Shown here piece after piece: positions 46,488-58,531 of a stretch of DNA of 64,000 nucleotides. Origin of the DNA: Wenzhouxiangella sediminis (lineage in GTDB: Bacteria > Pseudomonadota > Gammaproteobacteria > Xanthomonadales > Wenzhouxiangellaceae); assembly GCF_003410055.1 (NCBI RefSeq), contig NZ_QUZK01000046.1, forward strand, positions 62,001-126,000. The letters run 5' to 3'. Position 1 is the stretch's first letter. Each line of letters opens with the position of its first letter. Under the pieces are notes generated by a model that was not told the origin of the DNA, made no database searches, and was given only the letters and a program-made list of their open reading frames with translations. The position numbers and the translations under genes were made by a program.

Positions 46488-47087
46488 CTACTCCCTGATC
46501 GCCTCGAACTCGAAAATCAGATCCACCTCGTCGCCGACGAGGTTCCGCTCGACGCCGTAGGTCATGCCCCATTCGCTCCTGCGGATGGTGGTCCGGGCGG
46601 ACACGCCCAGCGTGTATTCGCCGTGGCCGAACGGATACTCGGCGGCCTTGTTGAGGGTCACGTCCAGCGAAACGGGGCGGGTTTCCCCGAGGAGGGTGAG
46701 CTTTCCTTCGAGCGTGCCGCGCCTGGGGTCGTCGTCTTCGGGCTGCCAGTCAGTCGCTTCGAAACGGATTGTTGCGTGCTCGTCGGCGTCCAGGAAATCA
46801 TCGTTGCGGAGATGCTCGTCGCGACGGTCATGGTTGGTGAAGACGCTGTCGGCTTGCACGAGCACTTCGCCCTCGCGCAGTTCGTTGGCTGCCTCGTCGT
46901 AGACGAAGCTTCCCTCCGCCTCCAGGAACTGACCGAGCGTGTCGGCATAGCCGATGTGCTCGACCAGGAAACCGATCGAGAAATGATCTTCATCGATCCG
47001 GTACTGCGCGTTTTCGGCCAGGGCGGGAAGTGACGAGGCGAGGATGAGTGTCGCCAGGGTGGTGCGGACCTTGGAAAGGAGTTTCAT
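46488..47087 (-). CDS. YceI family lipid-binding-type periplasmic protein
   Basis: Secreted 199-residue lipocalin-like barrel. After the signal peptide (TTLATLILASSLPALA) comes YRIDEDHFSIGFLVEHIGYA, the standard YceI start, and FTNHDRRDEHLRNDDFLDAD, then the end NLVGDEVDLIFEFEAI. YceI proteins bind isoprenoid-like lipids (polyprenyl chains, known from structures of relatives). ATG 47087 has GGAGG five bases upstream, and it overlaps the stop of the CDP-alcohol phosphatidyltransferase gene by ATGA, so the two are coupled; a lipid connection is plausible. Confidence 0.92.
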   Translation of the reverse strand: MKLLSKVRTTLATLILASSLPALAENAQYRIDEDHFSIGFLVEHIGYADTLGQFLEAEGSFVYDEAANELREGEVLVQADSVFTNHDRRDEHLRNDDFLDADEHATIRFEATDWQPEDDDPRRGTLEGKLTLLGETRPVSLDVTLNKAAEYPFGHGEYTLGVSARTTIRRSEWGMTYGVERNLVGDEVDLIFEFEAIRE

Positions 47088-47809
47088 GGCATCCTCCATT
47101 GCGTAGGTTGGGAAGCCCGGCGATGACGAAACAGCCAGGCCGTATCCAGGGCGAAGGAGATAGTCAGCGCCAGCAGCGCGCCGGCAAGCAGGGTCGCCCT
47201 GAGCGCTTCGGGCAGGAAAGGCAGCAGGGCCGTCGGCAATGCACCGACCTGGACGACGCACACGAGCTTGCGGCGGAAGCGATCGGGGAGGGGGCGTGAC
47301 AGCCAGGGCAGCAGCAGGCCGGCCAGGACGAAGACCGGGCGCATCAGGCCGATCGCCAGCACCCAGGCCGGCGCCAGGCCGGAAAGCCATAGAGCGGCGC
47401 ACAACACCAGGATCAGTGCGGCGTCCGTTTCCATATCGAAGCGTGCCCCGAATGCGCTGGATTCGTCGAAGCGGCGGGCCAGCCAGCCGTCGAGGCCGTC
47501 GAGCGCCAGGGCGGCGAGGGTCAGCGCGATGACCGCCCCGGCCCTTTCCCGAAAGAGGTCCGGCTCGATCAATGCGCCGGCCAGGGAGCAGACAATCACG
47601 GCGCGCAGCAGGGTCACCCGGTTGGCCCAACCCGACAGCGTCCGGTCCGGCCGGATGTGCGCCAGGATCGCGGCAAGCAACGTGTAGGCCGCCACTCCGC
47701 CGAGGACGGGCCAGCCGTTTCCCCGCCAGGCTTCGGCCAGCCAGGCCGACAGGCCGGCGGTGAGGATCGCGCCGGCGCCCAGGTCGAACCCGATGCCTTT
47801 GCCTTTCAT
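47084..47809 (-). CDS. CDP-alcohol phosphatidyltransferase family protein
   Basis: Inner-membrane enzyme of 241 residues that joins a CDP-activated lipid to an alcohol. The signature D-x2-D-G-x2-A-R-x8-G-x3-D-x3-D is complete: LDGLDGWLARRF followed by SSAFGARFDMETDA. Six helices are predicted. Which alcohol it uses is unknown. It is divergently placed (about 100 bp) from the pterin-like cluster, and could supply a lipid anchor to that product; this is inference. ATG 47809 was chosen; the longer open frame upstream is unlikely. Confidence 0.88.
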   Translation of the reverse strand: MKGKGIGFDLGAGAILTAGLSAWLAEAWRGNGWPVLGGVAAYTLLAAILAHIRPDRTLSGWANRVTLLRAVIVCSLAGALIEPDLFRERAGAVIALTLAALALDGLDGWLARRFDESSAFGARFDMETDAALILVLCAALWLSGLAPAWVLAIGLMRPVFVLAGLLLPWLSRPLPDRFRRKLVCVVQVGALPTALLPFLPEALRATLLAGALLALTISFALDTAWLFRHRRASQPTQWRMP

Positions 47810-47907
47810 GCTTGCATCGTGCCACATCGCGCTGGGCCGGTGCGTCAACGTCGCTCTCACTGGGTTATCGTGATGATTGGCGTGCCATTGCAAGGGAAAC
47901 CCGATCG

Positions 47908-48882
47908 ATGACCGAAATCGCCCGTGCCTTCTGGATCGTTGCGCCCGGTCGCGGCGAGATCCGCGAAGAGGCCTTGCCCCGGCCGAAGAAGCGGGAAGTG
48001 GCTGTTCGTACACTGCATTCCGGTATCAGCCGGGGCACCGAGTCGCTGGTTTTCAACGGTCGTGTGCCCGAATCGGAACATGAGCGGATGCGCGCGCCGT
48101 TCCAGCAGGGTGACTTTCCCGCCCCCGTGAAGTACGGCTACTGCGCGGTGGGCCGCGTCGAAGCGGGCGAGGAGGGACTCGTGGGGCACAGCGTGTTCTG
48201 CCTGCATCCCCATCAGGATCGCTTCGTGGTTCCCGCCGACGCCGTACTGCCCCTGCCCGATGCCGTACCCGCCGACCGGGCCGTGCTGGCGGCCAATATG
48301 GAGACGGCGCTCAACGGCGTGTGGGACGCCCGCGTCGGTCCCGGCGACCGGGTGACGGTGGTGGGCGCCGGGGTGGTCGGTGCCCTGGTCGCCTGGCTGG
48401 TCGGCCGCGTGCCGGGCACCGAAGTCACGCTGGTCGACGTGGCCCCGGGGCGGCAGGCCCTGGCCGAGGCCCTGGGCGTGGCATTCGCCGCGCCGGAGGG
48501 CGCCGCGGGTGAGCAGGACGTGGTCGTCCACGCCAGCGGAACCGAGGCCGGACTGGTGACCGCCCTGGGCCTGGCCGGCAACCAGGCTCGTGTCGTGGAA
48601 ATGAGCTGGTACGGCGATCGGCGGCCGGCCGTACCGCTGGGCGAGGCGTTTCACTCGCGCCGACTGTCGCTGGTGGGCAGCCAGGTGGGGCAACTGCCGC
48701 CCGATCGCCAGCCGCGCTGGGATCATCGACGGCGGCTCTCACTGGCGCTTCGCCTGCTCGCCGATCCAGGGCTGGATGCCCTGATATCCGGGACGAGCGA
48801 ATTCGAACACCTGCCCGAGGATATGCCCGGCCTGCTGGCCGGCGCGGGCGAAGTCCTCTGCCACCGCGTCGACTACGACTGA
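47908..48882 (+). CDS. BchC-like medium-chain dehydrogenase without zinc cysteine
   Basis: MDR-superfamily oxidoreductase, 324 residues. The nucleotide-binding domain has VVGAGVVGALVAWL and LVDVAPGRQALAEALG. The zinc-cysteine position reads HSGISRGTES instead of GxCGTD, like BchC and related enzymes, which oxidise a secondary alcohol on a tetrapyrrole. So the catalytic zinc is probably lost. It is the first gene of a run with a pterin-synthase homologue, a glycosyltransferase, a methyltransferase and a flippase-like gene (gap 29 bp, then overlaps). Confidence 0.85.
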   Translation: MTEIARAFWIVAPGRGEIREEALPRPKKREVAVRTLHSGISRGTESLVFNGRVPESEHERMRAPFQQGDFPAPVKYGYCAVGRVEAGEEGLVGHSVFCLHPHQDRFVVPADAVLPLPDAVPADRAVLAANMETALNGVWDARVGPGDRVTVVGAGVVGALVAWLVGRVPGTEVTLVDVAPGRQALAEALGVAFAAPEGAAGEQDVVVHASGTEAGLVTALGLAGNQARVVEMSWYGDRRPAVPLGEAFHSRRLSLVGSQVGQLPPDRQPRWDHRRRLSLALRLLADPGLDALISGTSEFEHLPEDMPGLLAGAGEVLCHRVDYD

Positions 48883-48911
48883 AATCCAATCACTGCAATC
48901 CAGGAACCAGG

Positions 48912-49310
48912 ATGTTTTCACTCACCGTTCGTGACCATTTCATGATCGCCCACAGTTTCACCGGCGAGATCTTCGGGCCTGCGCAGAAGCTTCACGGCGC
49001 CACCTATGTCGTCGAGGCCAGTTTCATGCGCCCCGAGCTCGACGATGACGATCTCGTCGTCGACATCGGCCTGGCCGGCGAGGTGCTGGGCAAGATACTG
49101 GGGGAGTTCAATTTCCGAAACCTCGATGAGCTCGAGCAATTCGAGGGACGCAACACGACGACCGAGTTCATGGCCCGGGTGGTTTTCGACCGGCTCGCTG
49201 AAGCGATCGAAAACGGCCGGCTGGGGCCGACCGGCCAGGGGCTCACTCGCCTGCGCGTGGAGCTGCACGAGTCCCACGTCGCCCGGGCCGCCTACGAGGC
49301 GAGTATTTGA
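48912..49310 (+). CDS. 6-pyruvoyl-tetrahydropterin synthase/QueD-like protein, non-canonical active site
   Basis: 132 residues, T-fold. IAHSF supplies the first zinc histidine, but the CxxxHGHxY motif reads AQKLHGATY, so both the catalytic cysteine (Ala) and one zinc histidine (Ala) are missing. The LDH-type catalytic aspartate-histidine position reads NLDELEQF. RNTTTEFMARVVFDRL and the substrate-binding glutamate (ELHESHVARAAYEA) are kept. It probably still binds a pterin-like ring, but the usual lyase reaction is doubtful. It overlaps the GT4 gene by 4 nt (TTGA). Confidence 0.85.
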   Translation: MFSLTVRDHFMIAHSFTGEIFGPAQKLHGATYVVEASFMRPELDDDDLVVDIGLAGEVLGKILGEFNFRNLDELEQFEGRNTTTEFMARVVFDRLAEAIENGRLGPTGQGLTRLRVELHESHVARAAYEASI

Positions 49311-50383
49311 GTCTCTCGGCGACTTTCATCGTGCCCGGTGACCCGGGCCAGCGCACGGGCGGCTATCTCTACGATGCCCGCATCGTTGACCAGCTGCGCG
49401 CGCTGGGATGGTCGGTCGAGGTAATTGGGCTCGAGGGGCGTTTCCCCGATGCCGACGGGACGGCCCGAAGGTCCATGGAGCAGGCTCTGGCCGCCGTCCC
49501 GGACGGCCAGGCCGTGGTCATCGACGGATTGGCGCTCGGCGGCGTCCCCGAGGCCGTTACCGCACAGTCAGGCCGCCTGGATCTCACTGCGCTGGTGCAT
49601 CACCCACTGGCCGATGAAACCGGGTTGAGCCCTGCCTTGCGCACGCGGCTGCTCGCGAGCGAGGCGCGCGCGCTGGCGGCCTGCCGCCGTGTCATCGTGA
49701 CCAGCCCGTTCACTGCGCGGCGCCTGGGCGTGCTGGGGCTGGATCCACGCCCGCCGGCGGTGATCGAGCCGGGCGTCGAGCCAGCCGCACTGGCCGGGCC
49801 GGTCGCCGACCGCCTGGCCGGTCGCGAGTCCGGCGGATGCGAAAGGCTGCTTTGCGTGGCCAGCCTGACGCCGCGCAAGGGCCAGGACATTCTGGTGCAG
49901 GCGCTGGCTGCGCTGGTCGACCGCGACTGGCACTGCGTGCTGGTCGGCTCGACCCGACGCGACGCTGAATTCGCCGCGCGTGTGCGCCGCGCCATCGACG
50001 AGGCCGGCCTGGGTGCGCGGATCGAATGCGTCGGGGAGTGCGGGCACCAGGCCCTGTCGGCCGAGTATCACCGCGCGAGCCTGTGCCTGTTGCCCTCGCA
50101 CTACGAGGGCTACGGCATGGTCGTGGCCGAATCCCTGGCCCGCGGCCTGCCGCTGATCTCGACCACCGGCGGCGCGCTGGCCGATACCGCGCCCGCCGAC
50201 TGCTGCCTTCGGTGCGCGCCGGGCGACGTCGAAGGTTTTCGTTCGGCCCTGCAGCGCTGGTTCGATGATGGCGCGCTTCGTCACCGCCTTGTGCGCGCGG
50301 CGGTCGGCAGGCGCAATGGGTTGCGCGACTGGCCTGCGGCGGGAAGCGCGTTCTCGGCGGCGTTGCGGGAGGTGCCGGCATGA
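49307..50383 (+). CDS. GT4-type glycosyltransferase
   Basis: 358-residue GT-B glycosyltransferase. It starts at TTG 49307, overlapping the stop of the pterin-synthase homologue. The acceptor domain opens with IVPGDPGQRTGGYLYDARIV, and the donor domain has LCVASLTPRKGQDILVQALA and, for the nucleotide-sugar pocket, LLPSHYEGYGMVVAESLARG (ExxG motif variant YEGYG...AE). Substrates cannot be read from sequence. Its position between a pterin enzyme and a methyltransferase suggests it glycosylates the cluster product. Confidence 0.85.
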   Translation: MSLSATFIVPGDPGQRTGGYLYDARIVDQLRALGWSVEVIGLEGRFPDADGTARRSMEQALAAVPDGQAVVIDGLALGGVPEAVTAQSGRLDLTALVHHPLADETGLSPALRTRLLASEARALAACRRVIVTSPFTARRLGVLGLDPRPPAVIEPGVEPAALAGPVADRLAGRESGGCERLLCVASLTPRKGQDILVQALAALVDRDWHCVLVGSTRRDAEFAARVRRAIDEAGLGARIECVGECGHQALSAEYHRASLCLLPSHYEGYGMVVAESLARGLPLISTTGGALADTAPADCCLRCAPGDVEGFRSALQRWFDDGALRHRLVRAAVGRRNGLRDWPAAGSAFSAALREVPA

Positions 50384-51240
50384 TGCCGGGCGCGGATTCA
50401 CGATTCGACGGCGATTGGCTGGCGCTGCGCGAGGCGGCCGACCACACGGCGCGCTCGGACGCGCTCGCCGGGCGACTGGCCGAGCGGCTCGCGCGCCGCG
50501 CGCCGCTGCGCGTTCTCGACCTGGGCGCCGGCACGGGCAGCAACCTGCGCTGGCTCGCGCCCCGACTGCCCGGTCCGCAAGACTGGCTGTTGCTCGACCA
50601 CGACGCGGAACTGCTCGATCGCGCACAAGTTCTGGCCGCCCCGGTTTCGCGCGACGATCGCCCGACTCGCGTCGAGGCGCGCTGCGCCGATCTCGCTGAA
50701 CTATCGCCCGAGCTTTTCGAGGGGTTGGACCTGATGACCGCGTCGGCCCTGTTCGACCTGGTCTCGGCGTCCTGGCTGGAGCAATTGGCTGACTGCATCG
50801 CAAGTGCCGGCGCGGCGGCCCTGTTCGCGCTTACCGTCGACGGCCGGCGCGGTTTCGTGGACGCCGCAGGTCGAGCGCTGATCGACGATGCCGATCGCTG
50901 GATGGTCCGGCAGTTCAATGCCCATCAGCTTCGCGCCAAGGGCCTGGGCAGGGCGCTGGGGCCGGCCGCCGCATCCGCGCTGCCCGAAGCGCTGACTGCG
51001 GCCGGCTTGCGGGTCTTCACCGAGCGCGCCGACTGGCGACTGGCAGCGGGTGAGCCGCAAAACGGGCCATTGGCTCAGGCCCTGATCGCCGACTGGTCGC
51101 AGGCCGTGGAAGAGCAGTCGCCTGAATCGAAGGCGCAGGTGGCCGCCTGGCGTGATCGGCGCCTGGCCACGCTCGAGGCGGGGCGAATCGGCCTTTATGT
51201 CGGTCACGTCGATGTTCTGGCTCTGCCGGAGGCGCCGTGA
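50380..51240 (+). CDS. class I SAM-dependent methyltransferase
   Basis: 286 residues. The SAM motif is VLDLGAGTGSNLRWL, followed by LLLDHDAELLDRAQ (acidic residue for the ribose), and LMTASALFDLVSASWLEQLA, as in COG-type small-molecule methyltransferases. It overlaps its neighbours by 4 nt on each side, so is translationally coupled to the GT4 and the flippase-like genes. Acceptor unknown; likely the cluster product. Confidence 0.85.
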   Translation: MMPGADSRFDGDWLALREAADHTARSDALAGRLAERLARRAPLRVLDLGAGTGSNLRWLAPRLPGPQDWLLLDHDAELLDRAQVLAAPVSRDDRPTRVEARCADLAELSPELFEGLDLMTASALFDLVSASWLEQLADCIASAGAAALFALTVDGRRGFVDAAGRALIDDADRWMVRQFNAHQLRAKGLGRALGPAAASALPEALTAAGLRVFTERADWRLAAGEPQNGPLAQALIADWSQAVEEQSPESKAQVAAWRDRRLATLEAGRIGLYVGHVDVLALPEAP

Positions 51241-52169
51241 GTGAAAGGCGACAGCCGGGACCCTCACTGCGCTGGTTGATCAGCCTGGCGGTGCTCGCCG
51301 CGCTTTTGTGGTGGCTCGATCCCGCCCGGGTGGCCGCCCAGGTCACGGCCCTCTCGCCCGGCTGGCTGGCCGCCGCCCTGGTGGTCACTGTGGTTCAGGT
51401 GTTGCTGTCGGCCTGGCGCTGGCGGTTCACCGCCAGCCGGCTGGGCCTGGCGCTGTCTCGAACGCGGGCGCTGGCCGACTACTACCTGGCGATGTTCGTC
51501 AACCAGGTCCTGCCCGGCGGCGTGCTGGGCGACGCGCTGCGGGCGCACCGCCACGCGTGCCACAGCGGCGCGGTCGGTCCGGCCTGGCGGGCGGTCCTGA
51601 TCGAGCGTTTTTCGGGCCAGCTTGTCGTTGCGCTGGGTACCGCCGGCGTGCTGCTGTTCATGCCGCTCTGGCGAGACGCGCTGGCCGCTCTATGGCCCGA
51701 GCGGGTCGGGGTCTGGATGGCGGCCGCGGCGGTACTCGGTCTGTCGGCCATCGCGCTCTCCGGCGCGGCGAGGCGCTTTCCACAGGGCTGGCGCGATCTT
51801 CGCGCCGACCTGTATCGGGCAATGCTGGCGCCGTCGGCCTGGCCGCGGCAGCTGGCGGCTTCGCTGGCGGTGGTGTGCAGCTATGCGCTGGTGTTTGCCC
51901 TGGCCGCGCGCGGCATCGGTGTCGGCCTCGACTTTGCCGTGTTGCTGGCCGTCGGCCTGCCGGTCCTGCTGGCCATGCTGATTCCTTTCTCGGTCGCCGG
52001 CTGGGGCTTTCGCGAGGCGGCCGCGGCGGCCGTGTGGCTGGCGCTGGGCTTGCCAGGCGAACAGGGCGTGGCGGTGGCGATGACCTACGGCGCCATCAAC
52101 CTGGTCGGGGCGTTGCCGGGGGCGGTCGTGCTGGCCCGGCGTCCGCTTCAGTCATGGAGGGCAAGATAG
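51237..52169 (+). CDS. flippase-like UPF0104 (LPG synthase TM) membrane protein
   Basis: 310 residues with about seven helices. Motifs of the UPF0104/lysylphosphatidylglycerol synthetase TM family are YYLAMFVNQVLPGGVLGDALRA (first cytoplasmic face block), AVLIERFSGQLVVALG and FREAAAAAVWLALGLPGEQG. Such proteins flip lipid-linked compounds. It is the last gene of the five-gene run, coupled to the methyltransferase (GTGAG overlap at 51237-51240), which suggests that the product is moved across the inner membrane. Confidence 0.85.
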   Translation: MSERRQPGPSLRWLISLAVLAALLWWLDPARVAAQVTALSPGWLAAALVVTVVQVLLSAWRWRFTASRLGLALSRTRALADYYLAMFVNQVLPGGVLGDALRAHRHACHSGAVGPAWRAVLIERFSGQLVVALGTAGVLLFMPLWRDALAALWPERVGVWMAAAAVLGLSAIALSGAARRFPQGWRDLRADLYRAMLAPSAWPRQLAASLAVVCSYALVFALAARGIGVGLDFAVLLAVGLPVLLAMLIPFSVAGWGFREAAAAAVWLALGLPGEQGVAVAMTYGAINLVGALPGAVVLARRPLQSWRAR

Positions 52170-52297
52170 ATGGCCTCGCCGATCTCGGTGCCCCAGTGGA
52201 ACAGCAACAGGCCGAGGATGATCATGCCCACGCCCATGATGAGTCTTTGCGGGCCCTTGCCGATGCGGTTCCATTTCTGCCTGATCGTTTCGTTCAT
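52148..52297 (-). CDS. 49-residue single-helix membrane protein (antisense to flippase 3' end)
   Basis: Too short to stand out, but well formed: MNETIRQKWNRIGKGPQRLI, a hydrophobic helix (GVGMIILGLLLFHWG) and the end EAIYLALHD. GGAG lies eight bases upstream of ATG 52297. The N-terminus is basic, as for a membrane anchor with its tail in the cytosol. The 3' end overlaps the flippase-like gene tail (52148-52169) on the other strand. No family is recognised; it may be a regulator or subunit of a membrane complex. Confidence 0.6.
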   Translation of the reverse strand: MNETIRQKWNRIGKGPQRLIMGVGMIILGLLLFHWGTEIGEAIYLALHD

Positions 52298-52396
52298 GCC
52301 GGCTCTCCGTTCTGTCATGGCTGGATGGAAGCGCTCATATTGGCGCCCGTTCCCCGGACACGCCAGTGACGATGGTCATCGCAGGGGGAAAGTGTT

Positions 52397-53224
52397 TTGA
52401 AACAGTGGCTTGAAGGCACGCTCCGGGTCGAGGAGTGGACCGCGGATACGACCGTGGCCGTGGTGACCTGGGCGGTTTTGCTTGCAGTCAGCCTGGACGC
52501 GGCGTTCGATGCGGGCGGTTCGGCGGCGACCGCCCTGCTGGCGGCCGGTCTTTTTCTGGTCTATCTCGTGGCCCTGCTGGCGGTGGCGGTCCGGCAGTCG
52601 CCGTCGCCGCAACGCGCCCGGGTTTGCCTGGGTGTTGAACTGGGTGCGGCCATCGGCCTTTTCGTGCTGATGCCGCTCGACTATCTCGCGATCCTGCTGG
52701 TCATCTGGTCCGCCCAGGCGAGCTGGTTCGTCGATCTTCGGCGCGCCATCGCGCTGGCCCTGGCCGTGTCGCTCGCGTTCCTTTTCGCCAGGCCCCTGGC
52801 CTGGGGCGAGGCGTTCGAGCTGTCGTCCTGGGCACTGTTCTCGATGTTCAACGTCTTCGCCGCGGTGATGATGACCCTGGTTCGCCGCGAGCAGGTGGCG
52901 CGCCTGAAGCTGGAGCGCTCCAACCGGCAGCTCGAGACCGCCCGCGACATGCTCTCGGAGGCCGCCCGTCAGGCCGAGACGATGCGTCTGGATGCCTTGC
53001 GGGAGGCGCCGGTGTTGGCCGAGCCCCTGACCGACAAGGAACGCGAGATCCTGCGCCTGGCCGCCTCTGGTTGCAGCAACCGGATGATCGCGGAACTGCT
53101 GCACAATTCCGAGGGAACCATCAAGAACCACTTTTCGAACATTCTCGGCAAGCTCGGCGTGAGGGATCGAACGGCCGCGGTCGTGCGGGCGCTTGGCTCG
53201 GGCCTTCTCGATGAGGGCCGCTGA
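52397..53224 (+). CDS. membrane-anchored LuxR-type regulator
   Basis: 275 residues: five to six membrane helices (about 20-170), an 18-residue coiled-coil linker (RSNRQLETARDMLSEAAR), and a C-terminal LuxR helix-turn-helix (LTDKEREILRLAASGCSNRM, then IAELLHNSEGTIKNHFSNIL). The arrangement is one-component: sensor and DNA binding in one chain with no receiver or kinase domain. The start is TTG 52397, with GGGGGA eight bases upstream. It lies between the glycosylation operon and the RibD/RibA genes and is a good candidate regulator of both. Confidence 0.83.
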   Translation: MKQWLEGTLRVEEWTADTTVAVVTWAVLLAVSLDAAFDAGGSAATALLAAGLFLVYLVALLAVAVRQSPSPQRARVCLGVELGAAIGLFVLMPLDYLAILLVIWSAQASWFVDLRRAIALALAVSLAFLFARPLAWGEAFELSSWALFSMFNVFAAVMMTLVRREQVARLKLERSNRQLETARDMLSEAARQAETMRLDALREAPVLAEPLTDKEREILRLAASGCSNRMIAELLHNSEGTIKNHFSNILGKLGVRDRTAAVVRALGSGLLDEGR

Positions 53225-53243
53225 AGCGTGGTTTCCGCCGAGG

Positions 53244-54164
53244 TCAGTCGAGAGCAGGCTCGCGCAGGATGACGTCCACGAGGAGCTCGTCCTCGAGCCG
53301 GAAAGTACGGATGCGCGGACGGCGGGCTTCATCGAGCCGATCGATGGCGGGCAGGTCGAGGCCGTTGCGTCCCGATCCGATGATCAGCGGGGCGATGAGC
53401 AAGTGAATCCGGTCGAGTGCGTCGGCGTGCATGAACCCGGAGACGGTATCAGCGCCCCCTTCGACCAGGAGGCGCTGCAGGCCGCGCTCGGCCAGGGCAT
53501 CGAGGATGCTGGCCGGGGAGAAACGGCCTCGGTCGAGCGGCAGCCGGACGCGTTCGACGTGAGCGGGCGCGGGTGAGGGCGCCGCATCGTCCGCGATCAG
53601 CTGGAGCACACGGTGCGGTCCCGAGCCTTCTTCGAACAGGGGGCCGACCGCGTCCACGCGAGCGCGGGGATCGACGATGACGGGCACCGGGTTGGGGCCG
53701 GTCACGTTCCGGACGGTTAACTGCGGCAAGTCCGCGCAGGCCGTGCCGGCGCCGACCAGCACGGCGTCGACCAGCGCCCGCAGGCGGTGCAGGTGCGCCA
53801 GGGCAACGGGACCGTTGATGTACTGCGAGTGACCGGTGCGCGTGGCGATTCGTCCGTCCAGGCTCTGGCCGAGCTGGGCGACGACGATCCGTTCGGCGGT
53901 GGCGATCGGCCCCAGGACGTCGAGCAGGGCGGCTGCGCTATCATCGAGAGCGGTATCGGCTTGCCAGTCTCCAGAGCGGTGCAGCTGGAGTCGGACGCCG
54001 GGCATCGGAGCATTCAGGGTCGGCTCGACCGTCCAGTCGTGGTTGCGGGCCGAGACCAGGAAGTCCCAGATCGCGTCCGGGGCGTTCGGGCGGCCGTCGT
54101 CGGTCGTGGGCAAGGCTGGCAATTCACACAATCCAGCCCCATTTGTCTTAGGTTCATCGGTCAT
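53244..54164 (-). CDS. RibD C-terminal-type (dihydrofolate-reductase-fold) reductase
   Basis: 306 residues. Residues about 95-300 are a RibD_C domain: VVAQLGQSLDGRIATRTGHS, then DAVLVGAGTACADLPQLTVR, and LLVEGGADTVSGFM. The deaminase half of bifunctional RibD is absent; instead there is an unassigned N-terminal extension (about 90 residues, DAIWDFLVSARNHDWTV). In riboflavin synthesis this domain reduces the ribosylamino side chain to ribityl. It is divergent from the GTP cyclohydrolase II gene, with 34 bp between the chosen starts. Confidence 0.83.
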   Translation of the reverse strand: MTDEPKTNGAGLCELPALPTTDDGRPNAPDAIWDFLVSARNHDWTVEPTLNAPMPGVRLQLHRSGDWQADTALDDSAAALLDVLGPIATAERIVVAQLGQSLDGRIATRTGHSQYINGPVALAHLHRLRALVDAVLVGAGTACADLPQLTVRNVTGPNPVPVIVDPRARVDAVGPLFEEGSGPHRVLQLIADDAAPSPAPAHVERVRLPLDRGRFSPASILDALAERGLQRLLVEGGADTVSGFMHADALDRIHLLIAPLIIGSGRNGLDLPAIDRLDEARRPRIRTFRLEDELLVDVILREPALD

Positions 54165-54198
54165 GGAACGACATAATGGCACAGGCGGTGATAAGTTC

Positions 54199-55314
54199 AT
54201 GCAACAGGTAGAGCGAGCCATTTTCGACCTGCGTCGCGGCCTGCCGGTCGTCGTCGGCGAAGACGCCGACGGGGCGGGTAGCAGCGTCATGGTCTATCCC
54301 GTCGAGTCGATTGCAGACACGAATCTCGCGGAAGTTCTCGAGACCGCCGGCAGTTCCCCGGCGCTGACGCTGACCCGGCACCGCATGGAGGCCATGGGCC
54401 TCGGCCTGAATACCGACGCCGCGTCGCTTCCGCTCAAGGGCGGTGATGGACTCAGTGCCGAAAGCCTCTACTGCGCTGCCGCTGCCGTCAAAGGCGGTCG
54501 CTCGGACCTGTTCGAAGAGCCGCGCCCGGCCAGCCTGGCCGAGCGCGCTGCCCTGGCGTTGATGCGGCGCGCCTTGCTGGTCCCGGCGGCACTCACCGCG
54601 CGCATAGACGGGAGCCGGCAGGCGGCCGTGGAACGGGCCGTGGAAGAGGGTCGCATCCTGCGCGTGCCCGCGCGCCTGGCCGAGCGCTGTTTCGAGTCGG
54701 GGGTCGGCATGTTGCGCCGGGTGAGCGAGGCGGACGTGCCGCTGAGTCAGTCGGTTCGCTCCCGCTTCGTGCTTTTTCGCGAGCCGGACGGCCTGCGAGA
54801 GCATGTGGCCGTCCTGATCGGCGACGCCAACGAATGGTCCCGGGAGGTGCCTGTCCGGATACATTCCTCCTGCCTGACCGGCGACCTGTTCGGCAGCCTG
54901 CGCTGTGATTGCGGGGAGCAGCTGCAGAACGCAGTACAGGCCATCGCCGAACTCGGCGGCGGCGTGCTGCTCTACCTGGCCCAGGAGGGACGTGGGATCG
55001 GCCTGGCCAACAAGCTGCGCGCCTACGAATTGCAGGACGCCGGGCTGGACACCGTCGAGGCCGACCGGGTGCTGGGTTTCGGCGACGACAACCGGCGTTA
55101 CCGCGTGGCCGTGGACATTCTCGCGGACCTGTCCATCGACAGGGTTCGACTGCTGACCAATAATCCGTCCAAGGTGCGCGCCCTCAGCGAGGGCGGGGTC
55201 GAAGTCGCTGCACGAGAAGGGCTGTATGGCCGGGTCACGCCCCAGAACCGCCGCTATCTCAAGGCCAAGGCCAGCCGCTCCGGGCACCTGCTCGACGAAG
55301 TGCTCGGAAAATAG
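54199..55314 (+). CDS. ribA: GTP cyclohydrolase II with degenerate RibB-like N-terminal domain
   Basis: 371 residues. The C-terminal half is GTP cyclohydrolase II: zinc cysteines in CLTGDLFGSLRCDCGE, catalytic region LLYLAQEGRGIGLANKLRAY (Tyr and Arg kept), DTVEADRVLGF, and LLTNNPSKVRAL. The N-terminal half resembles DHBP synthase (ERAIFDLRRGLPVVVGEDAD), but the acidic DRENEGD motif reads DADGAGS, so that activity is lost. It opens the imidazole ring of GTP to give a formyl-free or formylated pyrimidine. ATG 54199 preferred; ATG 54163 is in frame and overlaps the divergent start codon. Confidence 0.9.
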   Translation: MQQVERAIFDLRRGLPVVVGEDADGAGSSVMVYPVESIADTNLAEVLETAGSSPALTLTRHRMEAMGLGLNTDAASLPLKGGDGLSAESLYCAAAAVKGGRSDLFEEPRPASLAERAALALMRRALLVPAALTARIDGSRQAAVERAVEEGRILRVPARLAERCFESGVGMLRRVSEADVPLSQSVRSRFVLFREPDGLREHVAVLIGDANEWSREVPVRIHSSCLTGDLFGSLRCDCGEQLQNAVQAIAELGGGVLLYLAQEGRGIGLANKLRAYELQDAGLDTVEADRVLGFGDDNRRYRVAVDILADLSIDRVRLLTNNPSKVRALSEGGVEVAAREGLYGRVTPQNRRYLKAKASRSGHLLDEVLGK

Positions 55315-55345
55315 TCGCTACGGTTCAAGGAGCCTGATGCCAGGC

Positions 55346-56113
55346 CTAGGGTTGCCAGTCCTTGTTCCGGCATTCCGCCAGGACGGTCGCGAGGCGGCCG
55401 GCGTAGTGGGCCACCAGTCTTTCACCCAGATCCGCGGTTGCCGCGGACGCATCGCCGACAACGCCGGCGTCGTTGAGATCCTCTGCCAGCCAGGCCCAGG
55501 GCGCTTCGCCCTGGGGCGGCAGCGGTTTGCCGTGCGGGTGACGGGAAGCGAAATCCCGGGCTCGGTCCATGTGGACCAGGTCGGCAGCGAGGTGCAGCAT
55601 CATGGCGGTTTCGGCCAGCCCGCCGTGCAGGCCGTCCTTCAGCTCGCCGGCGTCGAGCTGGTCGCTCGGCGGGCGGAAACGCATGTAGCTGGCCTTGACG
55701 ACGAGCATTCCCCGGCGGCGCCTGAGTTCGAGCGCGGCGTCGTCCATCCAGCCGATGTTGCCGCCGTGGGCGTTGACCAGCACGAGTCGGTCGATGCGGG
55801 CGCGCGCCAGGCCTTCCCCAACGGCCACGAGCTGGTGTTTCATCTGTTCGGGCGGCAGGGTCAGGGTGCCGGGGAACGTAGCGTGCTCGTCGCTGGCGCC
55901 GATGGACAGGGTCGGCAGTGTGACAAGCGGAAACGCCGCATCGAGCCTGCTTGCTGCTTCCGCGAGCAGGCCTTCGCCGATCAGGCAGTCCGTTGCCAGC
56001 GGAAGGTGCGGGCCGTGCTGTTCGACGGCCCCGAGCACGAGCGCGGCGACCGGGCGCAGCCGGGCCAGGTCGGACAGTTCATCGCTTGTAAGTTCGCCCC
56101 ACTTTCGGATCAT
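55346..56113 (-). CDS. creatininase family protein
   Basis: 255-residue metal-dependent amidohydrolase of the creatininase/ArfB/MftE fold. Ligand motifs are present: GAVEQHGPHLPLATD (Glu, His, Asp), NAHGGN and HGGLAETAMM (Glu). Known members open creatinine, cut a peptide in mycofactocin maturation, or deformylate a GTP-derived pyrimidine (archaeal ArfB). Next to GTP cyclohydrolase II, deformylation or a ring-opening step on a related pyrimidine is plausible. The ribosome-binding GGAG lies 9 bases upstream of ATG 56113, inside the end of the FkbM gene. Confidence 0.88.
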   Translation of the reverse strand: MIRKWGELTSDELSDLARLRPVAALVLGAVEQHGPHLPLATDCLIGEGLLAEAASRLDAAFPLVTLPTLSIGASDEHATFPGTLTLPPEQMKHQLVAVGEGLARARIDRLVLVNAHGGNIGWMDDAALELRRRRGMLVVKASYMRFRPPSDQLDAGELKDGLHGGLAETAMMLHLAADLVHMDRARDFASRHPHGKPLPPQGEAPWAWLAEDLNDAGVVGDASAATADLGERLVAHYAGRLATVLAECRNKDWQP

Positions 56114-56117
56114 TACG

Positions 56118-56876
56118 TCACGCTCCGCTCCTGCCTTCGTAGAGTATGGCGTAGAGGTCGCCGGAGGCGATGCCCTGCGCGCCTTCGTGGAGCCAGTTGC
56201 GCACCGCATCGGCGCGTTGCCACCGCGGCCAGAGGAAGGTCCGGTCCTCTCCGGCCACGGCATTGTAGCGATAGCTGCCGAGCTCGCACAGGCGGTCCAG
56301 GCAGGCACGAGTATGATCCAGGGCGCCGGCGACGAATTCGATCGACAGCGCCGGCAGTGCGACGGACAGCCCGGCCAGTACGTCGGCTTCGTGGCCTTCG
56401 ACGTCGATTTTGCAGAAATCGGGTACGCCGTGCCGCTCGATCAGCGCATCGAGGGTGGTCACGGAGATCTCGATAGAATCGGACCAGGAAACTCGGGCGA
56501 ATCCGGGGTGGTTGCGAGTGACTGCGTCTCGCCAGGGGCGCGAAATCGAGGCGACGGCGGGGTGAGCGGCGTCCAGCGCAAGGATGGCCCGGCCGGGGCG
56601 GGCACCGACGGCTCGCTGGTCGAGGGTTACGCTCGAGTCGCGTCCGTGGAAGCGCCGCAGCCATCGCATCATCGCCGGCTGCGGTTCGAGGGCGACCACG
56701 TCCGCCCCGAGGCGGCGAAAGGCCCGGGTTCGGTCGCCGAGGTGGGCGCCGACGTCGAAGACCAGGCCGCCGTCGGGCACGAACGGTCGATAGAGGGCCA
56801 GCAAGCCGCGGAGTCGCCCGGGGCGGCGATAAATCAACATGGAGCGGGCAAGGCCGATCATTCGCCGAAGAATCAC
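56118..56876 (-). CDS. FkbM family SAM-dependent methyltransferase
   Basis: 252 residues. The SAM-binding segment is LVFDVGAHLGDRTRAFRRLG, followed by VVALEPQPAMMRWLRRF and the FkbM signature FCKIDVEGHEADVLAGL. It methylates an O or N atom on a sugar or natural product; the acceptor is unknown. GTG 56876 is the proposed start (ATG 56861 is an alternative). Only 4 bp separate its stop from the creatininase start, so the two are one transcript. Confidence 0.87.
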   Translation of the reverse strand: MILRRMIGLARSMLIYRRPGRLRGLLALYRPFVPDGGLVFDVGAHLGDRTRAFRRLGADVVALEPQPAMMRWLRRFHGRDSSVTLDQRAVGARPGRAILALDAAHPAVASISRPWRDAVTRNHPGFARVSWSDSIEISVTTLDALIERHGVPDFCKIDVEGHEADVLAGLSVALPALSIEFVAGALDHTRACLDRLCELGSYRYNAVAGEDRTFLWPRWQRADAVRNWLHEGAQGIASGDLYAILYEGRSGA

Positions 56877-56917: not shown

Positions 56918-58531
56918 ATGCATTGTGCGCCATCGAAAGTGAAACCGGATACCGACGCGCTCGCCATCGTGCGCATCCTGGCAGCAGGCCTGGTTCTCAA
57001 CGCACTGCTGGTGTTGCCGGCCTGGTGGCGCGACGGAATCATCGGCAGCGTCTGGTTCGCCCCTGAAGCCTTGCTGCTTCCGGCTTGGGTGGCGGTCGCT
57101 TCCGGTAGACGCCGCAGCGCTCTCCTGCGCGCGGCATCGGGCGGTTTGCTGGCTTTCGTCATCGTTGCGGGCTTCTTCGACGCCCTGGTCCAGTCGGTGC
57201 TGGGGCGGCCTCTGAACGTGTTCGTCGATCCGCTGATGCTGCGCGCGGGATTCCACCTGGTCGACGGCAGTTTCGGACGGTGGCAGGCCACTCTCGCCTC
57301 GGTGCTCCTCGCAGTGGCCGTCATCGCGCTCGCGTGGGTGATCTTTCGCCTGCTGCGCCCGCAGGCGCTTCCTCCCGGCAAGGCGGCACCCGCGATCATC
57401 CTGGCAAGCCTCCTGCTCGGCTTGCCCTGGGTAGCGGCGAAGCTGCCGGTCATCGAGTCGCAGGCCTGGCGCCTGCTGGTGACGCAGGCCGCTTCCCTCG
57501 AGGCGACGCGCGATGCGCGCGCCCGGATTCTGGCCGCTGCGGATGCGCCGGAATTCGAGCCCGGCCCGCTACCCGGCCTGGCCGGGCGGGACGTTTATGT
57601 CGTGTTCATCGAGTCCTACGGCGGCAGCGCGCTCGACCGGGCGCGAATGGCCGGGCGAGTCGAACCGCTCCTTCGTCGCTGGACCGAGCGTCTGGGCGCC
57701 GCGGGGGTGGAGGCGGTCAGCGGAAGAATGAAGGCGCCGATACGGGGCGGTCAGTCCTGGCTGTCGCACGCCAGCCTGCTCAGCGGTCTGTCCATCGACA
57801 GCCAGGTCTGGTACGAGATGCTGCTGGAGAAGGACATCGGCCTGCTCTCCGACGATTTCCGGCAGACCGGTCATGTCGCGGTCAATGTCGCGCCGGGCAT
57901 CGTCATGGACTGGCCCGAAGGCGACAGGCTGGGCTTCGATCGCATCTACGCCGCGGCGGACCTCGGCTACGAAGGGCCGCCTCTGGGCTGGGTGACCATG
58001 CCGGACGAGTACACCCTGCACACTTTCAGCGAGCGGATCCGGCCGCAGCAGGACGGCCCGGTTTTCGCCCAGATTGCCTTGATCAGCAGTCACTGGCCCT
58101 GGCGGCCGGTCATCGAGCCCCTGGACGACCATTCCAGGATCGGGCACGGACGCGTCTATTCCTCCTCGATCGACGAGGGCGAGCGGCCAGCCACTCTACT
58201 GTTCGATCCCGACCGCATGCGCCGTGCGTATGTCCGGAGCCTGGCCTATTCGCTGGCAGTCACATTCGACTGGGCCCGCCGCAACCTGCCGAGCGAGGCG
58301 CTCCTCATCGTGCTGGGTGACCACCAGCCAGTCTCCCTGGTGACCGGAAGGGAAGCCGGTTCCGAGGTTCCGGTCCACGTGATCAGCGGTGATCGCGATC
58401 TGCTGGCCGGGTTCATCGAAAGGGGATTCGTGCCCGGCCTGCTGCCTGTAAACGTCGACGAAGCACCACCCATTACCCGGCTCAGGCACTGGTTGAGAAG
58501 CGATTTCGCAACCGCCGAGCATTTGCCATGA
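56918..58531 (+). CDS. LTA synthase/sulfatase-fold membrane phosphotransferase or sulfatase
   Basis: 537 residues: five helices in the first 170, then an extracellular sulfatase-fold domain (about 225-530). Metal ligands match LtaS-type enzymes: Glu in YVVFIESYGG, and Asp-His in VLGDHQPVS; the nucleophile region is GGQSWLSHASLLSG (Ser instead of the TSD of LtaS). In Gram-positive bacteria such proteins polymerise glycerolphosphate; in Gram-negatives they modify glycans. It starts a run of three genes with a glycosyltransferase and a sulfotransferase. The start at 56918 lacks a clear ribosome-binding site. Confidence 0.82.
   Translation: MHCAPSKVKPDTDALAIVRILAAGLVLNALLVLPAWWRDGIIGSVWFAPEALLLPAWVAVASGRRRSALLRAASGGLLAFVIVAGFFDALVQSVLGRPLNVFVDPLMLRAGFHLVDGSFGRWQATLASVLLAVAVIALAWVIFRLLRPQALPPGKAAPAIILASLLLGLPWVAAKLPVIESQAWRLLVTQAASLEATRDARARILAAADAPEFEPGPLPGLAGRDVYVVFIESYGGSALDRARMAGRVEPLLRRWTERLGAAGVEAVSGRMKAPIRGGQSWLSHASLLSGLSIDSQVWYEMLLEKDIGLLSDDFRQTGHVAVNVAPGIVMDWPEGDRLGFDRIYAAADLGYEGPPLGWVTMPDEYTLHTFSERIRPQQDGPVFAQIALISSHWPWRPVIEPLDDHSRIGHGRVYSSSIDEGERPATLLFDPDRMRRAYVRSLAYSLAVTFDWARRNLPSEALLIVLGDHQPVSLVTGREAGSEVPVHVISGDRDLLAGFIERGFVPGLLPVNVDEAPPITRLRHWLRSDFATAEHLP

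Follow-up and report, generated by a model that had tools for sequence, protein, structure and literature searches.

6-Pyruvoyltetrahydropterin synthase (PTPS) and QueD share a fold whose active site we take to comprise three zinc-binding His, a catalytic Cys, a Thr/Glu pair and a Glu holding the 2-amino-4-oxo edge of the substrate (the pterin anchor). A variant of this fold is encoded in a gene cluster at 47084-56113 of the window, the 64,000-nucleotide stretch of Wenzhouxiangella sediminis DNA (contig NZ_QUZK01000046.1, positions 62,001 to 126,000) that was analyzed here. The variant has the domain, the first two zinc His, the Thr/Glu pair and the anchor Glu in common with PTPS/QueD, but Ala takes the place of the third zinc His and the Cys column holds Gln or Arg. 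The same altered motif is present in SCO6650 of Streptomyces coelicolor (PDB 3d7j), the nearest solved relative, named 'uncharacterized' in the PDB; its structure report is said to describe no zinc and no catalytic triad.

Other parts of the cluster recall other systems. The first steps of riboflavin synthesis, in the reductase-first route of archaea and fungi, likewise combine an intact GTP cyclohydrolase II with a diaminopyrimidine-type reductase; the cluster differs in that it contains no deaminase, is kept together with genes for a GT4 glycosyltransferase, a methyltransferase and a dehydrogenase, and stands in a genome with a separate rib operon. Cyanopterin is a glycosylated, methylated pterin built with a glycosyltransferase, and its report names GTP cyclohydrolase I for pterin synthesis (PMC3546692), whereas the window cluster has GTP cyclohydrolase II and RibD. 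The creatininase-family protein of the cluster belongs to the family of ArfB and MftE and keeps the metal-site residues, though it falls under both NCBIfam cut-offs (MftE, 121.6 of 172; ArfB, 23.6 of 180). The enzymes belong to known families; no paper describing their combination was found in the open-licence literature.

A conserved cluster around a PTPS variant

The original prediction, which had proposed a biosynthetic system at this place, was borne out as to gene content: the genes named in it were matched by Pfam models at the expected positions, except the dehydrogenase, whose best NCBIfam match, to BchC, is weak.

47084..47809, minus strand: CDP-alcohol phosphatidyltransferase (CDPOH), divergent from ADH; Pfam PF01066 CDP-OH_P_transf, 4.8e-17
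47908..48882, plus strand: medium-chain dehydrogenase, BchC-like (ADH); NCBIfam BchC, 45.9 bits
48912..49310, plus strand: PTPS/QueD-fold protein, variant (PTPS); Pfam PF01242, 4.2e-23
49307..50383, plus strand: GT4 glycosyltransferase (GT4), TTG start overlapping the PTPS stop; Pfam Glycos_transf_1, 4.1e-24
50380..51240, plus strand: SAM-dependent methyltransferase (MT); Pfam Methyltransf_25, 8.7e-8
51237..52169, plus strand: flippase-like membrane protein (FLIP); Pfam PF03706 LPG_synthase_TM, 1.8e-38
53244..54164, minus strand: lone RibD-type reductase (RibD); Pfam PF01872 RibD_C, 3.3e-36
54163..55314 (start perhaps 54199), plus strand: GTP cyclohydrolase II (RibA), Tyr-type; Pfam GTP_cyclohydro2, 9.1e-56
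55346..56113, minus strand: creatininase-family amidohydrolase (CREAT); Pfam Creatininase, 3.3e-63

ADH, PTPS, GT4, MT and FLIP form a single co-directional run, and the coupling claimed for it is seen in 4-base overlaps between PTPS and GT4 (TTGA), GT4 and MT (ATGA) and MT and FLIP (GTGA). RibD and RibA are divergent, with starts almost abutting; CREAT follows RibA on the opposite strand. The score of ADH is far under the BchC cut-off of 291, so it does not qualify as BchC; a Pfam search gave no match, and the usual zinc-ligand motifs are apparently missing (judged by eye). CDPOH scores 63.2 bits in Pfam (cut-off 22) and has no PDB sequence relatives at E 0.01; its D-x2-DG-x2-AR-x8-G-x3-D-x3-D motif is intact in 83 of 83 homologues (here and below, the window is among the 55, 64, 83 and 93 homologues counted, and a few genomes enter these counts twice).

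The neighbourhood search that the original prediction had called for gave a real, dedicated biosynthetic cluster spread over distant bacteria. A first sample found with ADH comprised 20 stretches from relatives (L033-L052), 17 of them with PTPS; among these stretches L052 ends within ADH, L036 is cut 2 kb past ADH and L038 is split. A scan of named genomes with an ADH alignment confirmed at least 587 relatives. The best 80 loci belong to Halomonas and further gammaproteobacteria, to beta- and alphaproteobacteria, to Streptomyces and Gemmatimonadota, and to a small number of other groups; many come from metagenome bins that may be misnamed. Leaving out 25 loci with <8 kb on a side, we counted GT4 in 53 of the remaining 55 (the ADH sample), PTPS in 53, MT in 52, CDPOH in 48, RibD in 40, FLIP in 39, CREAT in 36 and RibA in 34.

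A second sample, independent of ADH, used the PTPS variant as sole query (with bit limits slightly unlike those of the ADH sample). The variant was present, always at 178-230 bits, in 32 of 397 Pseudomonadota genomes, one of them the window's own. Besides the own locus, ADH accompanied it at 31 of 31 loci, GT4 at 30, MT at 28 and RibD at 27, followed by CDPOH (15), FLIP (14), RibA (13), an MdoH-type glucosyltransferase (13) and CREAT (7). All five of ADH, PTPS, GT4, MT and RibD stood together at 23 of the 31 loci, in 10 of 12 families. These five genes are the core of the cluster; CDPOH, FLIP, the creatininase and RibA are optional, not general. Co-occurrence of the set is far beyond chance.

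Protein distances (four duplicate loci dropped) correlated between PTPS and nine other families with r of 0.71-0.88, a value reached in 0 of 500 permutations each; this suggests joint inheritance, though part of the correlation stems from shared species history. RibA correlated with CREAT at 0.96 (50 loci); in the ADH sample 31 loci had both, 16 neither and 8 one alone, the pairing being less clear in the PTPS sample (p 0.10).

In the phylum of a cluster-bearing Streptomyces, PTPS was over the limit in 22 of 197 genomes, that Streptomyces included: seven scored >214 bits, two 118 and 153, and 13 fell at 69-85 bits and are probably another subfamily. Streptomyces loci with the variant bear the same cluster. 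The genomes with relatives at 69-153 bits include G489, G494 and G554 and possibly hold a sister subfamily. PTPS was also found on 19 plasmid records; three of the four that were inspected carry parts of the set.

The window PTPS matches the Pfam PTPS domain with 82 bits (cut-off 22.4) and the QueD model with 39.9 bits, under its cut-off of 89.25. SCO6650, its nearest solved relative (phmmer 4.4e-49, 131 residues), is also its sole PDB relative at E 0.01. Among 23 aligned proteins (52-83% identity to the window PTPS), D51, N70, D72, T82, E85, E120, F-G-P-A-Q and H-G-A-T were invariant. When aligned with the QueD domain of the same genome, Gln25 falls on the catalytic Cys, Ala30 on the third zinc His and E120 on the matching Glu, which we take to be the pterin anchor. 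Over 93 homologues, the Cys column held Gln in 90 and Arg in 3, and Ala stood at the third His place in all, so that the set of three His plus Cys is lacking throughout; E120, T82 and E85, aligned with the corresponding QueD residues, were invariant in 93 of 93. Such strict conservation despite the loss of the normal catalytic residues suggests a different but real activity. The annotations of all four inspected plasmids call the protein '6-carboxytetrahydropterin synthase', and three of them add a role in queuosine synthesis; this annotation is probably wrong. A separate 404-residue frame with tandem QueD-like domains and three H-G-H motifs lies elsewhere in the window genome (L192; G000:C13:11500-14500, minus strand).

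The membrane end of the predicted system, a CDP-alcohol transferase with a flippase, survives as an option. FLIP was present in 14 of the 15 PTPS-sample loci with CDPOH and in none of the 16 without it (CDPOH and FLIP in 14, CDPOH alone in 1, neither in 16); the ADH sample had both in 39 loci, CDPOH alone in 9 and neither in 7. CDPOH and FLIP are a linked option, inherited as a pair.

GTP cyclohydrolase II and riboflavin synthesis

The window RibA keeps all three metal Cys and the substrate Tyr, as expected of a GTP cyclohydrolase II, and has an N-terminal extension; it scores 320.8 bits with NF006456 (under 464) and 232.3 with NF001591 (over the cut-off of 148). The window RibD consists of the reductase domain alone, without deaminase, and so is not a bifunctional RibD; its best PDB chain is the diaminopyrimidine reductase 6p8c. 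RibD retains residues of the diaminopyrimidine reductases, D74, G75, D116, P118, L120, R123 and E206-G-G (domain numbering) being found in 64 of 64 RibD proteins; the creatininase-type metal-site residues E34, H36, D45, H119 and E171 were found in 55 of 55 CREAT proteins.

Complete rib genes elsewhere in the genome (ribD, ribE, ribB, ribH), which had been named as support for a special pathway, were indeed found. This separate operon encodes a bifunctional RibD with deaminase and reductase (TIGR00326, 354.3 bits, over 156.35), riboflavin synthase, RibB with a RibA-like tail, and lumazine synthase. The tail scores 37.6 bits (RibA cut-off 205.85) and has lost all three metal Cys; it resembles the RibBX proteins of Aeromonas and Shewanella, described as without cyclohydrolase activity (PMC10012899). 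Judged by these residues, then, the genome has no intact GTP cyclohydrolase II besides the window RibA, a finding that by itself would favour housekeeping use. The original prediction regarded the special pathway as lost if ribA and the RibD-type gene were the only copies and served normal riboflavin synthesis: RibA is the sole metal-ligand copy, and RibD has a second one.

RibA and the creatininase had also been counted as members of the system; both turned out to be optional, though within the window's family RibA goes along with the cluster. Strong RibA matches were found in 21 of 24 family genomes with the cluster and in 1 of 13 without it (37 genomes; Fisher test 3e-6, relatedness ignored). 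Counting G033, which has a weaker match with three Cys and Met at the Tyr place, gives 2 of 13 (3e-5). Restricted to genomes at least 90% complete, the figures were 13 of 14 for cluster-bearing and 1 of 8 for cluster-free genomes (2 of 8 if metal Cys are the measure). In the family table G001 counts as cluster-positive because of a 53-residue piece of ADH where a contig ends, and G005 and G019, whose contigs start inside the cluster, were reassigned as positive (before that, 19/22 vs 3/15). Metal Cys were checked in 8 of the 13 cluster-free genomes (G018, G024, G027, G030-G033, G036); for the remaining 5 the score decided, or there was no match (G021).

RibA is therefore not independent of the cluster in the family table, with which a double use is still compatible. 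Plain housekeeping was rejected as the full account of RibA, as most cluster-free family genomes are without any metal-ligand RibA; for the same reason riboflavin synthesis in this family does not hinge on an intact RibA. GTP cyclohydrolase III was absent from 13 of 13 genomes tested, 12 of them without metal-ligand RibA. Twelve genomes of the window's family or order, at least 94% complete (G018, G024, G027, G030, G032, G037-G039, G041, G043, G046, G047; L240-L243, L245, L249-L255), have no GTP cyclohydrolase III and, as their only RibA-like part, the tail fused to RibB, which lacks the metal Cys. In each of two cluster-bearing alphaproteobacteria (G085, G089; L177, L178), the single match to GTP cyclohydrolase II is devoid of metal Cys.

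All nine Halomonas-type genomes (G061-G068, G077) have a standard RibA of at least 218 bits, and eight of them, all except G066, also a cluster RibA of 181-190 bits; three Kushneria genomes have one standard copy and a cluster without its own RibA (L086 was left out of the 40 entries of this survey). At the substrate position, 55 cluster RibA proteins had Tyr in 39 and Met in 15, one (L064, in two frames) being unreadable; all 15 of the Met type came from Streptomyces loci. In S. coelicolor, GTP cyclohydrolase II of the Met type reportedly leaves the formyl group in place. Such retention would explain the creatininase beside Met-type RibA, an explanation that is incomplete since CREAT also adjoins Tyr-type RibA. 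Classic GTP cyclohydrolase I (PF01227) was not found in the window genome (99.8% complete); the FolE2 type was not searched for.

A possible product and its alternatives

We give about an even chance to a dedicated pathway, in its general form and not in each step, that starts from a GTP-derived ring and ends in a glycosylated and methylated product. The product would be a compound with a 2-amino-4-oxo-pyrimidine or pterin ring, the likely entry being GTP opening and reduction without deamination. Conservation, gene pairings, kept and lost residues and the tracking of the cluster by RibA in the family were observed; each chemical step, and the order of the steps, we infer. RibA would open GTP to give 2,5-diamino-6-ribosylamino-4(3H)-pyrimidinone 5'-phosphate; with the Met-type RibA of Streptomyces the formyl group would probably be retained, to be taken off by the neighbouring creatininase-fold protein. 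The lone RibD would reduce the ribosyl side chain, and the 2-amino group should stay because the cluster has no deaminase. The PTPS-fold protein and the BchC-like ADH may then rework the ring or the side chain, GT4 would add a sugar and MT a methyl group; where CDPOH and FLIP are present, the product could be linked to a phospholipid and flipped to the other side of the membrane.

One could speculate further that the cluster is a GTP-cyclohydrolase-I-independent route to a pteridine-like glycoconjugate, in which RibA (with the deformylase where formyl is kept) and the reductase provide the diaminopyrimidine, a PTPS with a rebuilt active site carries out novel chemistry on its ring or side chain, and the product is phospholipid-anchored and flipped in many hosts. 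We hold this specific form only tentatively, as rather doubtful; if true, it would mean a new class of compound, possibly redox- or light-active and partly envelope-bound. With its marker, the PTPS variant, in ∼8% of sampled Pseudomonadota genomes (32/397) and in actinobacteria too, the pathway would give a role to SCO6650, a solved structure listed as uncharacterized, and to additional copies of GTP cyclohydrolase II that now carry riboflavin annotations.

Several observations weigh against the pathway from GTP. RibA is missing from 18 of 31 loci of the PTPS sample and 21 of 55 of the ADH sample, so the GTP entry may come from other copies, or be wrong. Of the 16 actinobacterial loci in the ADH sample, 10 have no RibD next to the cluster; CDPOH and FLIP are both missing in 16 of 31 loci, which means that the lipid end is not general. 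ADH occurs without PTPS nearby in a few loci (L038, which recurs as L062; L077; L079), and one Streptomyces plasmid carries PTPS without the set. Where the cluster is present, RibA may also work in riboflavin synthesis, since the opening of GTP in relatives without intact RibA is unexplained. A hint in favour of the pathway comes from a study of S. coelicolor, in which expression of SCO6655 was anticorrelated (-0.61) with predicted flux (PMC2853524); it is not specific, as another GTP cyclohydrolase II, SCO2687, was anticorrelated as well (-0.52). That SCO6655 belongs to the SCO6650 cluster is itself judged by locus numbers and by gene order in other Streptomyces. The product and the enzyme activities named here are predicted ones.

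A decoration of envelope glycolipids or glucans is possible, though we consider it unlikely. Its skeleton would be a sugar or polyol instead of a GTP-derived ring, with RibA and RibD furnishing a cofactor only and the PTPS-fold protein and ADH working on sugar-like substrates. CDPOH, FLIP and the sulfatase-like, FkbM and YceI neighbours all suit the envelope, as does an MdoH-type glucosyltransferase within ∼10 kb of the cluster at 13 of 31 PTPS-sample loci (7 of 12 families) and 24 of 101 loci; two such enzymes at other loci are named MdoH by NCBIfam. On the other hand, none was found in the 16 actinobacterial loci of the ADH sample, and NF003958, one of several MdoH models, had no match in the window genome, which weakens periplasmic glucan decoration as the main explanation; we read the proximity as a shared envelope setting, not a requirement. 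The steadiest partners, moreover, are ADH, PTPS, GT4, MT and RibD rather than membrane genes, and PTPS retains the pterin-anchor Glu. At L260, L221, L230 and other loci, alphaproteobacterial ones among them, an MdoH-type glucan glucosyltransferase lies directly beside ADH.

The PTPS fold with its retained anchor would also fit a pterin glycoside made from ordinary dihydroneopterin, with the PTPS-fold protein working on pterins and RibA and RibD merely co-located, and known bacterial pterin glycosides can be methylated, as in cyanopterin (PMC3546692). We regard this as improbable: RibD is about as constant as MT (27 vs 28 of 31), RibA follows the cluster within the family, and classic GTP cyclohydrolase I is absent from the window genome (the FolE2 type lying outside the search). 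Chance neighbourhood of riboflavin genes and unrelated envelope genes, without a joint pathway, would agree with a possible use of the window RibA, as sole intact GTP cyclohydrolase II, in riboflavin synthesis; it is hardly credible, given that order and content are kept across phyla and the protein families co-diverge. For the core set it is contradicted by both the ADH and the PTPS samples, and the PEPC gene at the left, by comparison, is present in just 1 of 55 loci of the ADH sample.

Neighbouring genes

In many genomes the neighbourhood reaches yceI on the left and the FkbM methyltransferase and sulfatase-like genes on the right. FkbM, sulfatase-like and YceI genes were counted at 16, 13 and 13 of the 55 ADH-sample loci and at 10, 6 and 4 of the 31 PTPS-sample loci, respectively.

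46488..47087, minus strand: YceI-family protein, optional neighbour; Pfam PF04264, 6.8e-39
52397-53224: LuxR-type regulator gene; Pfam GerE/LuxR, 1.3e-16
56118..56876, minus strand: FkbM-type methyltransferase, optional neighbour; Pfam PF05050, 2.2e-14
56918..58531, plus strand: sulfatase/phosphotransferase-like membrane protein, optional neighbour; Pfam PF00884, 3.9e-4, under cut-off

The LuxR-type membrane regulator, originally taken as part of the system, had to be dropped from it: all 13 loci in which FLIP is followed by RibD lack the gene there (these are the usable ones among the 20 loci from relatives, the remaining 7 breaking off or being split or rearranged). Ribokinase, phosphatase and MtnA neighbours, seen on two plasmids, were not recognized among the first 45 recurring families of 129 loci (five duplicate loci and the window dropped; part of the families identified). 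On the two plasmids, from Palleronia and a Rhodobacteraceae (L262, L263), the clusters are reduced and have PfkB-type kinases, an inositol-monophosphatase-family protein and an MtnA-like isomerase as neighbours. Between FLIP and the LuxR gene of the window, a 56-residue frame at 52148-52318 on the minus strand has one likely membrane segment, judged by eye.

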